From assembly GCA_903847405.1 (NCBI GenBank), contig CAINDP010000003.1, positions 1-45,749 on the forward strand: a stretch of DNA of 45,749 nucleotides. The letters run 5' to 3'. The notes below the pieces were generated by a model. It saw nothing but the letters and a program-made list of their open reading frames with translations, made no database searches and was not told the DNA's origin. Below, piece by piece: positions 29,737-45,749 of this stretch. Position 1 is the stretch's first letter; each line of letters starts with the position of its first letter. The DNA is from an uncultured Myxococcales bacterium. Lineage in GTDB: Bacteria > Myxococcota_A > UBA9042 > DTJE01. The translations under genes were made by a program, and so were the position numbers.

Positions 29737-30876
29737 ATGATCGCGGCCGTCATCGCTCTCGTCCTGGCACTCCTGTCGATCGCGCTGGCGATCCCGGTCC
29801 TGGCCGCCTGGGTCCGCGGTCGGCGTGTCGTCGCGGGGCGGGATCTGGGACAGTCGGTGCTGGTGGTCGTTCCCCTGCCCCGGGGGGCGGCGCCCGGGCG
29901 GTCCCTGGCCCGATCGCTGGCCGCGGCCGCCCACGGCGGACCGCTGGCGGTGCGGGTGGCCTGTTCCCCCGGCGGGACCGAAGGCGATCGATGGGTCGAG
30001 GAGGCCCGTCGGGCGGCTCCGGCCCTCGATGCCCGCGTCGTGACGGCGGCGCCTCCGGGGCGACACGTTCCCGCGGCGTGGCTGGCCGTCGAGGCGTCCC
30101 GGGGGGATGCGTCGGAGGTGGTCGCCCTGGTGGACTCGCGGGCCCGGCCCACGGCCCGGGACCTGGCGCGCCTGCTGGCGTGCCCGGGCAGCGGGGGCGC
30201 GACCTGGGTGGCCGCGGTGCCGGTCCCGGGGACCGGCGCGGGTGCGATGGGGGCGATGCTGGCCGTCCTGGCGGGGGACCTGGCGCCGCTGGCCGCCGCG
30301 TCGTGCGGTGCCGAGGCCCTGCCCACCCTCCTGACGGCGGGCACCCGGGACGCCTGGGACCATGCCGTCCGGGATCCGCTGGCCCTGAACCGCCCTTCCC
30401 TGGCGGTGTCCGCGGCCCTGCGCGCCGGCCCGGCCGCGGCGCTGGTCCCGGTGCCGTCGGCCCTTGCGGCGGGCTGCGAGGGAACGGTCCTGCGGCAGTC
30501 GGTGGCGGTGCTGTGGCGGTCCCGGCCCGGTGGCATGGCGCTGGTGGCCGCGGCATACCTGGCGCTGCCCCTGGCCCTGGCGGTCCGGGCGACGGCGACG
30601 GGTTCGGCGGCGGCGGTCGCGATGACGGCGGTGGTCCTGGCGTGGACCGCCCGCCTGGCGGTCGCGGCGACGTGGACGCGCGGGACGCGGGGCGACGGGG
30701 CGGCCCTGGCGGCGGCCCTGGCCGCGCCGCTGCGGGATGCTGCGGCCCTGCTGGTCCTGGGGGTCGGGGCGGCCTCGGCGCGAATCGAGGCGGGCGGGAC
30801 CCGGTTCCGGATCCGGCGGGGCGGCGTCCTGGTTCCCACGGCAGACGGCCGCGGGGCGGCGGACGAGGATTTCTGA
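29737..30876 (+). CDS. GT21/HpnI-like membrane protein, probably degenerate glycosyltransferase
   Basis: 379 residues. An N-terminal transmembrane helix (about 3-25), a GT2-type soluble domain, and two or three C-terminal transmembrane helices give the topology of ceramide-glucosyltransferase-like (HpnI) proteins. The position of the catalytic DxD reads V-D-S-R (Asp133-Arg135), so the second acidic residue is lost. A Q-S-V-A-V-L-W segment stands where Q-x-x-R-W is expected, and the end R-F-R-I-R-R-G-G also resembles that family. Very Ala/Arg/Gly-rich. It may be an inactive or altered-specificity relative; assignment is tentative. Confidence 0.5.
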   Translation: MIAAVIALVLALLSIALAIPVLAAWVRGRRVVAGRDLGQSVLVVVPLPRGAAPGRSLARSLAAAAHGGPLAVRVACSPGGTEGDRWVEEARRAAPALDARVVTAAPPGRHVPAAWLAVEASRGDASEVVALVDSRARPTARDLARLLACPGSGGATWVAAVPVPGTGAGAMGAMLAVLAGDLAPLAAASCGAEALPTLLTAGTRDAWDHAVRDPLALNRPSLAVSAALRAGPAAALVPVPSALAAGCEGTVLRQSVAVLWRSRPGGMALVAAAYLALPLALAVRATATGSAAAVAMTAVVLAWTARLAVAATWTRGTRGDGAALAAALAAPLRDAAALLVLGVGAASARIEAGGTRFRIRRGGVLVPTADGRGAADEDF

Positions 30877-30922
30877 GCCCGGGACGGGCGTCGTGCAGGG
30901 CACTGGATCCGGGGGAGGCGAC

Positions 30923-32002
30923 ATGGAAACGGCGCGGCGGGCAGTCATCGGGATCGACGGAGGCAACACCAAGACGGCGGCCGTGCTGGTGACCGAGGAC
31001 GGGCGCCTGGCGGCCCACTCCCGGACCACCTCGTCGAACTGGCAGACGTTCGGCGAGGACGGGGCGCGCCAGGGCCTGTTGCGCGTGGCCCGTCCGCTGG
31101 CCCAGGCCGCGCGGGAGCAGGGGCTGCGGGTGACGGGGTTCGCGTTCGGCCTGAGCGGCCACGACCGCCCGCGGGATTACGAGGTCCTGGCGCGGGTCAC
31201 CGACGACGTGGTGGCCGCGGTGGCGTCCATCGTGCCCGTGGCCGCCGCCGCGCCCCGGATCGTCCTGAACGACGCCTTCCTGGTCCTGCGGGCCGGCACC
31301 GACGGCGGCGCGGGCGTGGCCGTTTCCTCGGGCACCGGCGGCAACTGCGTGGGCGTGGGGCGCGACGGCCGGCGCCTGCAGATCGGGGGCATCACGCAGG
31401 AACTGGGCGACGGCGGCGGCGCGGGCGAAATCGCCCTGCAGGGCATGCGGGCCGCGGGGCTGGCGCGCGACGGCCGGGGCTGGCGCACCGCCATCACCGA
31501 CCTGGTCCTGGGGGCCACCGGGCTGACGTCCATCGAGGACGTGCTGGACTACGCGATTCCCGGCGCCCTTCCGCCCGCCGACGATCCCGAGGCCGTCCCC
31601 CCGCGCCTGTGCGACCTGGCGCCCCTGGTCTTCGAGGCGGCCCGCCAGGGCGACATCGTGGCCCGGCGCATCCTGGAGGACATCGGCCGCAGCCTGGGCC
31701 GGCAGGCGGTTGCCGCGGCGCACCGCCTGTTCGCCCGGGAGGAGGCCTTCCCGCTGGTCCTGGGCGGCACCGTCCTGATGAAGGCGTCCGTGGACAACTT
31801 CGCCCGGGCGATCATCCTGGAAACCCAGGCGTCGTTCCCCGGCGCGATCCCCTCCACGCTCCAGTTCCACCCGGTGCTGGGCGCGGCCCTCCTGGCCCTG
31901 GACGGCGTCGCTGCGACGCCGGAGGGCGAGGGCCTGGGCCTGCCCCTGGCCGACGGTTCCCTGCGCCGGACCATCGGTCCCCAGGTCACCGGCCTCTTCT
32001 GA
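30923..32002 (+). CDS. N-acetylglucosamine kinase-like sugar kinase (BadF/BadG family)
   Basis: 359 residues of the ASKHA fold. It shows phosphate-1 I-D-G-G-N-T-K-T (11-18), N-D-A-F as connecting motif, S-S-G-T-G-G-N-C as phosphate-2, and G-D-G-G-G-A-G. These match GlcNAc kinases of the BadF/BadG/BcrA/BcrD family. It would convert GlcNAc to GlcNAc-6-phosphate, feeding deacetylation and the NagB-like enzyme encoded at 35725-36801. GGGGGAGG precedes the ATG. The alternatives glucosamine kinase or another hexosamine kinase cannot be excluded. Confidence 0.8.
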   Translation: METARRAVIGIDGGNTKTAAVLVTEDGRLAAHSRTTSSNWQTFGEDGARQGLLRVARPLAQAAREQGLRVTGFAFGLSGHDRPRDYEVLARVTDDVVAAVASIVPVAAAAPRIVLNDAFLVLRAGTDGGAGVAVSSGTGGNCVGVGRDGRRLQIGGITQELGDGGGAGEIALQGMRAAGLARDGRGWRTAITDLVLGATGLTSIEDVLDYAIPGALPPADDPEAVPPRLCDLAPLVFEAARQGDIVARRILEDIGRSLGRQAVAAAHRLFAREEAFPLVLGGTVLMKASVDNFARAIILETQASFPGAIPSTLQFHPVLGAALLALDGVAATPEGEGLGLPLADGSLRRTIGPQVTGLF

Positions 32003-41261: not shown

Positions 41262-44200
41262 CTAGGAGGGACCGGGATCGGCCGGCACGCCGCGCGGCCG
41301 GGGCGCCTGGCGGACCTGGTGCGCGAAGGCCTCCAGGCGGTTCACGTTGTGGGTGGACTGGAGGCCCTCGTAGACCAACGTGCACGTCGCCATGCCGCCG
41401 TGGTCGTGCCGCATGGCCGGGAGCAGCGCCGACGTGACGGTGCCCAGCATGCAGTTGTGGCACATGGCGTTGATGACGCCCGAGGCGCCCGCCTGCTGCA
41501 GTTCCTCGACGCGACTGAGGTTCAGGGACAGGCACTTGTCGATCCAGTGGCTGGCGTAGGTGTCGGCGACCCGGGACACGTCGGGGAACTGGCGCTCCTG
41601 GGGCGTCCGGATCGTGTCCGGGAAGTGGCGGTCCACCAGGGCCCGCAGGGCGGCGACGGCGGGGATCGCGACCCGGGCGGCGTTGCCGGTGACGGTCTTC
41701 CCCTGCCGGATCATCTCGGCGTGCAACTGTTCGCCGCCCAGCAGGGACACGTCCACCAGGCTGCACGAGGGCCAGACCTCGAAGCCCATCCCGCGCAGGC
41801 GGTCGTACAGGCCGTCGTTGGCGTGTTCGTTGATGCGCGTGTAGGTGTCGCCGATCACGCCGATGCGGGGGCGCGTGCCGTCCGCCGGCGACAGGCGCAC
41901 CGCGGCCATCCCGGCCACCGCCTCCCGCAAGGCCGGGAACACGCGCCGGCGGGCCAGGCCGTCCTCGACCAGGTCCACGGCCCGGGCGTAGGCGATCGCC
42001 ATCGCACCCGTGTCGTCGTAGGGCTCCGTTTCGATCTTCCACTTGTAGAGCCGGTCGATCGCGTACATGCCCAGCGCCAGACGCGCCACGTAGCCCCGGC
42101 CCAGCGGCGCCATGGTCGGCGGATCGGCGATGTTGACGATGCTGACGTCGGCCAGCCCGATGCGGTCCAGGACCAGTTTCATCGCGACCATGAACTGCGG
42201 CAGCAGGCACGGGCCGAAGTACGACGGGCCGTAGTAGCACGCCTCGGCGGGGACGAAGTCGGGGCGCCGGCTGGCCCGCACCAGGTCCCCCAGGAACGAC
42301 ACGTACGGGTGGCACTCGCGGCCGTAGGCGTGCGTCAGGCCCAACTGCCAGGACTCGTCGTCGGTGGGCGGCAGCAGGTGTACGCGGCAGCCCACCGACT
42401 TCAGGGCGCCCACGAAGGCCCGGGAGTGATCCGACAGGAAGGGCACCCAGTACGTGTAGTCGCGCAGCGGTTGCGTCGGCACGCCCGGGGGCGTCCCGCG
42501 GCGGCGTTCGGTGCGCCCCTTCGGACCGTCGGGCTCGCGCTCGCGGCGGACCGTGCGGGCGAAGGCTTCCAGGCGCGTCACCAGGCCCGCCTCGGCCTGG
42601 TGGTCGTCGAACTCCAGCACGATGTGCGGCGTGTCCGTCAGTTCGTCTTCCAGGTACTGGTCGATGAAGGCGTCGGGGCCGCAGCCGAAGTTCGTGACGA
42701 TCACCGCCGACAGGGACGGCGTGCGGCGGACGATGCGGGCGGCCTGCAACTGCTCGCGGCCGAACCCCCAGCGCACGCGGGCCCAGAAGGCGGGCAGCGG
42801 CTCGTCCTCCAGGGGCAGGAAGTCGAAGGGGATCGGCTGGATGCCCAGCGTGGCCAGGCGGCGGGCCAGGTTCAGGTTCAGGCGGCGGTCGGACGTGTTG
42901 TAGGGGCGGCCCAGCAGCACGGCGCCCGGGCGGCCCTCTGCGGCCAGGCGGTCCAGCAGCAGGCGGCCTTCCGCCCGACAGGCGGCGCGGAAGCGTTCCT
43001 GGGCGGCCGTCGCGCGACGGAAGGCGGCATCGACTTCGGCCCGGGGGACGTCCAGGGCCTGGGCGGTGGTCGCGATCCAGTGCGTTTCCTCGCCGGGGAC
43101 CGGGGTCTCCAGGCTGACCACCTCGACGCCGGGATGGGACTGGGCCAACTGGGCCCGGACCACGTACGGGGCGGCCTGCGTGTAGGCGCAGGCGTACCGG
43201 TTGGCGGTGTCGGCCGGCGGCCGGAACTGGCGCAGGTGGGGCAGGAACAGGCGCGTCGCGCCGTGGGCCACCAGGTCGTGGACGTGGCCGAACAGGATCT
43301 TCACCGGCTGGCAGAACTCCTCGGGCACCCGGGCCAGGCCCTGGGCGGCCTTCTCGCTGTCGGTGCGGCCGGACAGCGTGACGCGGTAGCCCAGGGCGGT
43401 CCAGAAGGTCCGCCAGAAGGGGACGTCGTCGGCCAGGCTGAGGGCGAAGGGGATGGCGATGGGGCCGCGGTCCGGGGGCAGGGCGGCGACGGCGGCTGCG
43501 GCCTCGACGGGGCCGGTCGGGGCAGAGGGCTCGACCATGCCCGCGCACTCCGCCAGCAGGCGCTCGCGGGTGGCGAACGCGTCCCCGGCGGGGGTGGGAG
43601 CCTCCTCGCCGCGTTCGAAGCGGCCGCAGACGCTGCCGAAGAACGACCGGCGGCCCTCGCCGGCGGAAACCTGCTGGATTTCGCACTGGTTTTCGCACGC
43701 GGCGCACTCGAAGGTCCGGATGCCGACCGCTTCGTTCGCGGTCGCGAAGCCCCGGAAGCGCGACGGCGCGGCGTCCCGTCCGGCGGCCTCCCGGGCGATC
43801 AGGGCCGCGCCCCAGGCGCCGGAGGTTTCGGGGTGGGGATGGACCGCGACGGAGCGGCCCAGGATGGCCTGGAAGGCGGCGCACACGGCGGCGTTCCGGG
43901 CCACGCCGCCCTGGAAGACGACCCGGGCGCCCACGGGACGGGACCCGACGACCTTGTCCAGGTAGTTGCGGGCGACCGAGTAGGCCAGTCCGGCGCACAG
44001 GTCGGCCTTGGATGCCCCGTGCTGCAGGTGGTGCACGAGGTCCGAGTCCATGAACACCGTGCACCGGCTGCCCAGGCGCACGGGTGCCCGGGACGACAGG
44101 GCCGCGGTGGCGAAATCGCGCCGCACGTCGATGCCCAGGCGCCCCGACTGCTCCTCCAGGAAGGCCCCGGTGCCCGCCGCGCACGCCCGGTTCATCTGGA

Positions 44201-45542
44201 AGCGCGCCACGCGGCCGCCGGACAGGCGGATGTACTTGCTGTCCTGCCCGCCGATCTCGAACACCGTGTCGGCGTCGGGCACGAAGTGGACCGCCGCCCG
44301 GGCCTGGGCCGAGATTTCGTCCACGACCTCGTCGGCGCCGGCCAGGTCCCGGGCCAGGTGGCGCCCCGAGCCGGTCGTGACGACCCGGGCGACGCGCACC
44401 CCGACGGCCAGTTGACCGTGGAGGTCGTCGAGGGCCGCGTGCACCGCGTCCACGGGCCGTCCGGCCGTTGGCAGGTAGGCCGAGGCGGCCAGGCGGCCTT
44501 CGGCGTCGATCGCGACGGCCTTGGTGCTGACCGAGCCCACGTCGATGCCCAGGAACACGACGTCGGCCGTCGAGCGGGGCAGGGGGGCGGCGGCGACCGT
44601 GGGGTCCGGCGCGGCGTTCCCGGAGGGGGCCTGCCCGGGGGTTGCCGCGGTTGCCAGCGGAGCCAGCCCCGAGGCGCGTTCCGGTTCACCGGCCTGGAGC
44701 GGCGTCCGTCCGGCCAGACGTCCCAGCGACACCGGCTGCACCCACGGATGCTCGCGGGCCAGCAGCGCCGCCCCCAGCGCGCCCATGACCTTGTGGCCCG
44801 CCGGTCGTATCAGGTCGCCGTCCGACAGGCCCAGGACCTCGACCAGGGCCCTCGCCACGCCGTCGTTCGCCGCGACGCCGCCCTGGAACAGGATCGGCGG
44901 TTCGGGCGCCCGGCCGTGGCACAGGCTGGCCAGGTAGGTGCGCACCAGGGCGAAGCACAGGCCCGCGACGATTTCCCCGGGCGGGCAGGCCCGCTGCTGC
45001 AGGTGGATCATGTCGGTCTTCGCGAACACCGAGCAGCGCCCCGCGACGCGCGCCGGGTGAACGGCCGCCGCGGAGGTGTCGGCGAAGGCCTCGATGGACA
45101 TCCCCAGGCGCTCGGCCATCTGGTCCAGGAACGCCCCCGTGCCTGCCGCGCATAGTTCGTTGAAGGCGTGGTCCAGAACGAAGGGGTGCCCGTCGGCGCC
45201 GCGCCCCACGCGGATGAACTTGCTGTCCTGCCCGCCGATCTCGACGATGCTGCGGACGTCGGGGTGCAGCGTCCACGCCGCCGTCGCGTGGGCCACGATC
45301 TCGTTGACCGGCTCGGCCGCCAGCGGCCCCGCCAGCAGCTCCTTCCCGGACCCCGTCACGACCGCACCCGCCACGGGGGTGTCGGGCCCCAGGGCCGCCG
45401 CCGCCTCGGCCAGGATCGCGGCGGCCGCTTCCAGGGGCCGGCCCTGCGTGCGCCTGTATGCCTGGAACCGGACGTCGCCGTCCGCCGACAGGACCACGGC
45501 CTTGACGCTGACGGACCCGACGTCGATGCCAAGCGTGTCCAC
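41262..45542 (-). CDS. Giant fused acyl-CoA dehydratase activase / dehydratase-like protein
   Basis: 1,426 residues. Two successive BadF/BadG-type ATPase (HgdC-like) domains: first about 4-265 (I-D-V-G-S-V-S-V-K, G-G-Q-D-S-K, cluster Cys131 in C-A-A-G-T-G, Cys170), second about 330-585 (I-D-V-G-S-V-S-T-K, Cys454, Cys494). They are joined by a Pro/Ala linker. Then comes a Cys cluster (Cys613, Cys616, Cys620, Cys639) and a DUF2229/HgdB-like C-terminal half with N-F-G-C-G-P-D-A, G-R-E-C-H-P and M-C-H-N-C. Known activases couple ATP hydrolysis to injection of one electron into 2-hydroxyacyl-CoA dehydratases. Start GTG with CGGAGG upstream. No partner genes are nearby, so its substrate is unknown. 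Confidence 0.9.
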   Translation of the reverse strand: MDTLGIDVGSVSVKAVVLSADGDVRFQAYRRTQGRPLEAAAAILAEAAAALGPDTPVAGAVVTGSGKELLAGPLAAEPVNEIVAHATAAWTLHPDVRSIVEIGGQDSKFIRVGRGADGHPFVLDHAFNELCAAGTGAFLDQMAERLGMSIEAFADTSAAAVHPARVAGRCSVFAKTDMIHLQQRACPPGEIVAGLCFALVRTYLASLCHGRAPEPPILFQGGVAANDGVARALVEVLGLSDGDLIRPAGHKVMGALGAALLAREHPWVQPVSLGRLAGRTPLQAGEPERASGLAPLATAATPGQAPSGNAAPDPTVAAAPLPRSTADVVFLGIDVGSVSTKAVAIDAEGRLAASAYLPTAGRPVDAVHAALDDLHGQLAVGVRVARVVTTGSGRHLARDLAGADEVVDEISAQARAAVHFVPDADTVFEIGGQDSKYIRLSGGRVARFQMNRACAAGTGAFLEEQSGRLGIDVRRDFATAALSSRAPVRLGSRCTVFMDSDLVHHLQHGASKADLCAGLAYSVARNYLDKVVGSRPVGARVVFQGGVARNAAVCAAFQAILGRSVAVHPHPETSGAWGAALIAREAAGRDAAPSRFRGFATANEAVGIRTFECAACENQCEIQQVSAGEGRRSFFGSVCGRFERGEEAPTPAGDAFATRERLLAECAGMVEPSAPTGPVEAAAAVAALPPDRGPIAIPFALSLADDVPFWRTFWTALGYRVTLSGRTDSEKAAQGLARVPEEFCQPVKILFGHVHDLVAHGATRLFLPHLRQFRPPADTANRYACAYTQAAPYVVRAQLAQSHPGVEVVSLETPVPGEETHWIATTAQALDVPRAEVDAAFRRATAAQERFRAACRAEGRLLLDRLAAEGRPGAVLLGRPYNTSDRRLNLNLARRLATLGIQPIPFDFLPLEDEPLPAFWARVRWGFGREQLQAARIVRRTPSLSAVIVTNFGCGPDAFIDQYLEDELTDTPHIVLEFDDHQAEAGLVTRLEAFARTVRREREPDGPKGRTERRRGTPPGVPTQPLRDYTYWVPFLSDHSRAFVGALKSVGCRVHLLPPTDDESWQLGLTHAYGRECHPYVSFLGDLVRASRRPDFVPAEACYYGPSYFGPCLLPQFMVAMKLVLDRIGLADVSIVNIADPPTMAPLGRGYVARLALGMYAIDRLYKWKIETEPYDDTGAMAIAYARAVDLVEDGLARRRVFPALREAVAGMAAVRLSPADGTRPRIGVIGDTYTRINEHANDGLYDRLRGMGFEVWPSCSLVDVSLLGGEQLHAEMIRQGKTVTGNAARVAIPAVAALRALVDRHFPDTIRTPQERQFPDVSRVADTYASHWIDKCLSLNLSRVEELQQAGASGVINAMCHNCMLGTVTSALLPAMRHDHGGMATCTLVYEGLQSTHNVNRLEAFAHQVRQAPRPRGVPADPGPS

Positions 45543-45688: not shown

Positions 45689-45749
45689 ATGCGACACGTA
45701 GCGACCCCGGTAGCCCGGGAGGCCAAGGCGATGACGAGGGCGGAAGTGA
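45689..45749 (+). CDS. N-terminus of a probable transposase (runs off the window)
   Basis: The ATG at 45689 opens a frame of 20 codons still open at the window edge, beginning M-R-H-V-A-T-P and reaching A-M-T-R-A-E-V. An A-M-T-R-x-E-V start is what I remember from integrase-core transposases of the ISNCY/IS481-like type, where a helix-turn-helix follows. The preceding 20-bp repeats support an element end. The family cannot be fixed from 20 residues. Confidence 0.5.
   Translation, partial: MRHVATPVAREAKAMTRAEV

Follow-up and report, generated by a model that had tools for sequence, protein, structure and literature searches.

We examined a 45,749-nucleotide stretch of DNA (the window) from an uncultured Myxococcales bacterium (contig CAINDP010000003.1), in which a single open reading frame (ORF) on the minus strand, 41262-45542, encodes a protein of 1,426 amino acids. 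This protein is very probably an ether-lipid synthase of an anaerobic bacterium, a fused member of the PlsA/Ger family and a predicted ATP-dependent ester reductase whose substrate would be a membrane phospholipid ester. The domain order of the chain is Act1-Act2-hairpin-Red1-Red2: two activase domains, a short hairpin with four conserved cysteines, and two tandem folds of the dehydratase/reductase type. Each component of the class I benzoyl-CoA reductase complex, a tetramer, thereby has a counterpart in this one polypeptide. We infer the lipid substrate, the cluster occupancy and the electron route. A first-pass annotation of this DNA had described two activase domains fused to one dehydratase-like half in a single chain that might serve ATP-driven low-potential electron transfer from start to end. 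The double-activase fusion is borne out, and the ATPase pair and the reductase modules do lie on one polypeptide, along which electron transfer is predicted; the C-terminal half, however, consists of two folds with three conserved cysteines each.

The gene, which starts with GTG and has GGAGG a few bases upstream, was delimited from the ORF, Pfam and NCBIfam matches and an alignment of homologues; all of its parts lie on the minus strand. Pfam found two stretches of BcrAD_BadFG (PF01869; E 7.6e-76) and one of DUF2229 (E 5.3e-53), and NCBIfam found two TIGR00241 activase stretches. Act1, the first activase (ASKHA ATPase) domain, covers residues 1-265 (44748-45542) with Cys131 and Cys170, and Act2 covers residues 325-590 (43773-44570) with Cys454 and Cys494; both were placed by Pfam, alignment and a structural model, with matches to the PDB chains 4ehu_B and 9gai_D, respectively. 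The hairpin (residues 605-650; 43593-43730), drawn from the alignment and the model, carries Cys613, Cys616, Cys620 and Cys639 and is a candidate for an extra Fe-S (or Zn) site. Red1 (residues 690-1005; 42528-43475) holds DUF2229 as well as Cys744, Cys785 and Cys954, and was placed by Pfam, alignment, model, and fold and profile matches. Red2 (residues 1026-1419; 41286-42467), with Cys1077, Cys1112 and Cys1364, has no Pfam match and was delimited by alignment, model and profile comparison; some relatives carry it as a separate gene.

These 14 cysteines were recognized in an alignment of 76 rows, in which the window protein is joined by a paralogue from the same genome and by 74 homologues found on named genome contigs. 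The best 80 of 296 confirmed stretches had been kept, giving 79 loci; the alignments omit five of these (L027, L069, L072, L077 and L085), for which a single frame gave fewer than 1,350 matched residues. Thirteen cysteines are kept in every row and Cys616 in 75. The activase domains have the ASKHA fold with two cluster cysteines per protomer that marks HgdC-type activases, and the aligned counterparts of Cys454 and Cys494 in the HgdC activator 1hux are Cys127 and Cys166 (PDB comparison, counted on the printed alignment). We take these two HgdC residues to bridge one [4Fe-4S] cluster across the dimer. Since the two cysteines of each ATPase domain match both HgdC ligand positions, Act1 and Act2 are predicted to provide the same four ligands inside one chain and to share one bridging [4Fe-4S], not to hold one per module. 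The first-pass annotation had given each module a cluster cysteine of its own (131 and 454). Both residues are invariant, but so are Cys170 and Cys494, which it missed, and a cluster for each module is not what we predict. Its C-x2-C-x3-C...C motif at 613-639 is present as described. Each of the Red domains has three conserved cysteines, as many as are reported to ligate the open-site catalytic [4Fe-4S] of BzdO (PMC11971306). By this analogy, Red1 and Red2 would each carry one site-differentiated (open) [4Fe-4S]. With every site occupied, the chain would bind 16 iron atoms if the hairpin holds a [4Fe-4S], and 12 if it does not.

Structure prediction bears on both halves. The model of the N-terminal half (residues 1-655, 75 sequences) has a predicted local distance difference test score (pLDDT) of 87.2 and a predicted template modelling score (pTM) of 0.84. 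The best match of Act2 in this model is 9gai_D (Z 33.4, root-mean-square deviation (rmsd) 1.5, 259 aligned), and Act1 (model residues 1-269) matches 4ehu_B (Z 30.1, rmsd 2.2, 258 aligned). The pTM suggests a fixed mutual placement of Act1 and Act2, and, because the cysteine pattern is two plus two, HgdC-like pairing of the ATPase domains, a check proposed at the outset, is likely, as judged from these two features rather than from the model coordinates. For the C-terminal half (residues 600-1426), the model has pLDDT 87.2 and pTM 0.88, with the hairpin less certain (block means 66 to 77). The VIA list for this half speaks for Red1 alone: the top ten rows are all chains of 2-hydroxyacyl-CoA dehydratase (HAD; 2-hydroxyisocaproyl-CoA dehydratase is matched), double-cubane cluster protein (DCCP) or benzoyl-CoA reductase, with Z 10.4 to 14.4 and the next row at 8.3. 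Among them are 3o3n_B (Z 14.4, rmsd 4.0, 261 aligned) and 8s02_B (Z 12.7, rmsd 4.4, 266 aligned). In the model, the strands and helices of Red2 follow one another as they do in Red1, and each of the three Red2 cysteines immediately precedes the helix that corresponds to the one in Red1. Profile-profile comparison gave 96.7% for Red1 against the standard HGD-D profile, 82.2% for Red2 against the same profile and 88.3% for Red1 against Red2, with the three cysteines aligned in all three cases; 14 control comparisons (reversed or unrelated) stayed at or below 7.2%. A second HGD-D profile matched Red1 weakly (37.7%) and Red2 not at all (0.1%), and a PDB sequence search with the profile of the C-terminal half returned weak matches alone (best E 0.12). 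The folds of Act1, Act2 and Red1 are thus predicted from models, and that of Red2 is assigned by homology.

This anatomy is the one described for PlsA and Ger. PlsA has the architecture Act1-Act2-Red1-Red2 (PMC12838417, Fig. 8 legend), is encoded by a two-gene operon in Clostridium perfringens and by one gene in Enterococcus faecalis, Lactococcus cremoris and Bifidobacterium longum, and yields plasmalogens when expressed in Escherichia coli (PMC12838417). Ger is described as PlsA-like, with two activation domains, and makes alkyl ethers (PMC13274423, PMC8788747, PMC11150832); organisms that produce only alkyl ethers are reported to carry two-activase homologues validated as Ger (PMC13274423). 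In the window protein, likewise, a pair of activation domains precedes a pair of reduction/dehydration domains, the last recognized by profile and secondary-structure order, and all of the modules have conserved cysteines for the predicted [4Fe-4S] clusters. Relatives also show the split form: Red2 is a separate ORF, resembling plsR, beside an Act1-Act2-Red1 ORF in several Myxococcota (L148, L149, L153, L154, L161 and L165) and in Fusobacterium (L173). The homologue from Listeria, a genus named as having plsA/plsR orthologues (PMC9702350), shares the modules and cysteines of the window protein, and Ger homologues are reported in 61 of 347 Myxococcota metagenome-assembled genomes from the Black Sea (PMC11868695). 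The first-pass suggestion that the substrate may not be a CoA ester is probably right, the closest described enzymes, PlsA(R) and Ger, acting on phospholipid esters (PMC12838417, PMC13274423, PMC11150832). The novelty that it implied does not hold, as both the architecture and the function of the family have been published for PlsA and Ger.

An activase-dehydratase for a CoA ester, that is, a fused HgdCAB or benzoyl-CoA reductase, would belong to the same superfamily, use the same ATPase and reductase folds, and agree with the current annotation names. We nevertheless regard it as very improbable. In enzymes of this type, activase and dehydratase are distinct subunits with adjacent genes, and this is not what we found. 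Among 739 neighbour genes called in the 74 loci (with a rough length and GC3 (third-codon-position GC) picker), none matched the standard dehydratase profiles and a separate activase occurred in one locus. Homologues always adjoining standard hydroxyacyl-CoA dehydratase genes, which the first-pass annotation said would reduce the protein to an ordinary activase, are therefore not what these loci show, and in 11 of 36 relatives positive for DUF2229 no HGD-D gene was detectable. In the 52 related genomes, 25 had both DUF2229 and standard HGD-D, 11 DUF2229 only, 7 HGD-D only and 9 neither, so that the presence of the gene is independent of HGD-D (Fisher p 0.12); the correlation of DUF2229 with the CarF-type plasmalogen desaturase PF10520 was not significant either (p 0.21). 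The same genome holds ordinary dehydratase-type genes elsewhere, a dehydratase-type set on contig C21 and a DCCP-like pair on C201, and the fused and split architectures match those of a proven plasmalogen synthase.

The first-pass annotation had also noted that no CoA ligase, transferase or partner subunit is nearby. Upstream of the gene start, 207 bases remain before the end of the contig at 45749, so the window can be read for the downstream side alone and supports the statement there. An 88%-identical locus, L009, flanked by about 10 kb in each direction, extends this: the neighbours scanned there with Pfam, several of which had no Pfam match, included no CoA ligase, transferase or dehydratase. 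Its downstream genes are of the same kinds as those in the window (a BNR_2 protein, a short-chain fatty acid transporter, an amino acid permease and an aldose epimerase). A second PF01869 protein in the window (30737-32002) is N-acetylglucosamine kinase-like, below the model cut-off, and does not resemble an activase partner. No conserved gene neighbourhood was found across the 74 loci. The commonest neighbouring family, in 11 of them, is a radical SAM protein of about 310 amino acids that has a helix-turn-helix at its C terminus and is encoded immediately upstream of the homologue (for example L023:7574-8524; one member scanned). A TetR-type family lies upstream in 6 loci (one member scanned), and the gene immediately after the Collinsella homologue encodes a TetR/AcrR regulator (L169:5912-6601); a TetR regulator beside pls has been described for E. 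faecalis (PMC9702350).

Several observations weigh against assignment as an ether-lipid synthase. Identity to the Listeria homologue is 26% over 1,330 columns, and, with named-lineage homologues standing in the comparison for the characterised PlsA and Ger sequences, homology to a proven enzyme is argued from architecture, named lineages and the literature. Red2 was assigned by profile comparison and secondary-structure order, without a fold search of Red2 alone. No lipid gene is conserved beside the homologues in the 74 loci, ten representative genes having been scanned with Pfam, although lipid partners could be missed, since more than 3 kb was available on both sides in 29 of these loci only. 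Two activase domains are no mark of Ger either, since the Listeria, Collinsella and Fusobacterium homologues, like that of Haliovirga, also have two. Finally, the Ger2 protein of Desulfatibacillum alkenivorans is reported to have given no ether lipid when expressed in E. coli (PMC11150832), and the family contains several deep paralogue groups, with two copies frequent in this genome and its relatives, so that functions may differ. The last two points are also what would favour a PlsA/Ger paralogue that has ceased to make ether lipids and serves as an electron-transfer helper or acts on another ester; we give this explanation very little weight, as all 14 family cysteines are retained in the window protein and its clade. 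The second fused paralogue of this genome (L095:8307-12788, contig C82) is 1,494 amino acids long, shares 30% identity with the window protein, has altered hairpin spacing, and belongs to a group that recurs in relatives. Also very improbable is a DCCP fused to its reductase, with small molecules reduced at an [8Fe-9S] cluster. Red1 does match 7yzm_A (Z 13.5, rmsd 4.2, 281 aligned), and a "CPYxQ" stretch at Cys785 shows a weak profile alignment with DCCP (E 0.12). Against it, the conserved cysteines number three in each Red domain, compared with the six described as ligating the irons of a double cubane (PMC11971306), a number to which the hairpin cysteines could in principle contribute.

Within the PlsA/Ger family, we lean modestly toward Ger (alkyl ether) over PlsA (vinyl ether), a judgement drawn from a tree of 53 rows. 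Besides the window protein, these comprise 29 of the 74 loci and 23 rows taken from plasmid records and stretches of genomes; L150, L151, L152 and L170, with a module missing in the fetched stretch, were left out. The window protein and its Myxococcota kin group with Desulfobacterota, anammox and other rows (SH-aLRT, Shimodaira-Hasegawa-like approximate likelihood ratio test, 93), and Listeria, Collinsella and Fusobacterium fall in another group (SH-aLRT 100). The Listeria and anammox rows are named stand-ins for characterised PlsA and Ger, and several branches are long. Ger is the likelier label because ether lipids without plasmalogens are reported for D. alkenivorans and for Kuenenia, an anammox organism (PMC8788747), although PlsA and Ger are described as not yet separable by sequence (PMC13274423, PMC11868695). 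A further point for the ether-lipid assignment as such comes from the bacterium's own family: DUF2229 is present in 12 of 13 genomes and PF10520 was detected in none (18 of the 52 relatives overall have it), so that of the two routes the anaerobic one alone was detected there.

Taking the protein as a PlsA/Ger-type synthase, we can outline how it might work; beyond the cysteine map, the steps are reasoned from the anatomy and from what is established about the mechanism of the superfamily. Act1 and Act2 would pair within the chain and hold the single bridging [4Fe-4S], which an external low-potential donor would reduce. ATP binding and hydrolysis would then lower the potential of this cluster and drive single electrons, perhaps via a cluster in the hairpin, into the two site-differentiated [4Fe-4S] clusters, one in Red1 and one in Red2. 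These clusters would pass an electron to the carbonyl of the sn-1 acyl ester in a membrane phospholipid. Once another electron and a proton had been added, loss of water would give a vinyl ether (plasmalogen, as for PlsA), or further reduction would give a saturated alkyl ether (as for Ger). The published proposal for PlsA is similar in outline, with two sequential electron reductions followed by protonation and dehydration (PMC8788747).

The hairpin is the one under-explained part of the chain. It is present in 25 of 26 ORFs that hold Act2 and Red1 together, including that of Listeria, which rules it out as a signature of Ger only. In the 53-row alignment, three hairpin cysteines are found in 52 rows and Cys616 aligns in 49, the second cysteine being shifted in three. 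The exception is a plasmid-borne homologue of Paraclostridium bifermentans (L171:2971-6846), which lacks the hairpin and all three Red2 cysteines and keeps all those of the activase domains and Red1. This homologue adjoins an ABC transporter set and a Crp/Fnr regulator, and its type is possibly a sub-family with another role. Because hairpin and Red2 cysteines were lost together, the hairpin may serve Red2, a single case that is no proof of coupling. A bolder and rather doubtful extension is that the hairpin is a third kind of redox site, an additional cluster passing electrons from the activase pair to Red2, such that the whole ATP-driven wire, made up of bridging cluster, hairpin and two open [4Fe-4S] sites, lies in one chain and the clade of the window protein takes a lipid ester to the saturated ether. 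We found no mention of a four-cysteine hairpin between activase and reductase in the portions of the literature searched, and do not claim it as undescribed.

Family databases label such proteins "acyl-CoA dehydratase activase" or DUF2229, and an ether-lipid gene is consequently hidden in many genomes. Anaerobic ether lipids are relevant to the bacterial side of the "lipid divide" and to sediment biomarkers. The cysteine map, with one shared cluster, one hairpin and two open clusters, names the first targets for spectroscopy and mutagenesis.

Among known systems, the 2-hydroxyacyl-CoA dehydratases with their HgdC-type activators (3o3n, 1hux and 4eht) have the activase cysteine pair and the Red1 fold in common with the window protein; they differ in that activator and dehydratase are separate and the substrate is a CoA ester. 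The class I benzoyl-CoA reductases MbdONPQ and BzdNOPQ (9gai and 8s02) come closer in composition, with an activase pair and two reductase subunits, and are among the best structural matches of both halves, but they are built from four separate subunits, act on a CoA substrate and have a double cubane in BzdN. Ger (Thermotoga maritima Tmari_0479; D. alkenivorans SHJ90043), a PlsA-like protein of about 159 kDa with two activation domains, is reported to convert an ester to an alkyl ether (PMC13274423, PMC8788747, PMC11150832), and is likened to the window protein by description, not by sequence. PlsA-PlsR (C. perfringens CPE1194/1195 and the fused PlsA of E. faecalis, L. cremoris and B. longum) is distant in sequence, as judged from the Listeria stand-in used in place of the characterised sequences, and lies across a supported split in the tree. 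It shares with the window protein the Act1-Act2-Red1-Red2 order and the conserved cluster cysteines, and, in line with the fused and split forms seen here, it is encoded by one gene of 4.2-4.9 kb or by a two-gene operon (PMC12838417).

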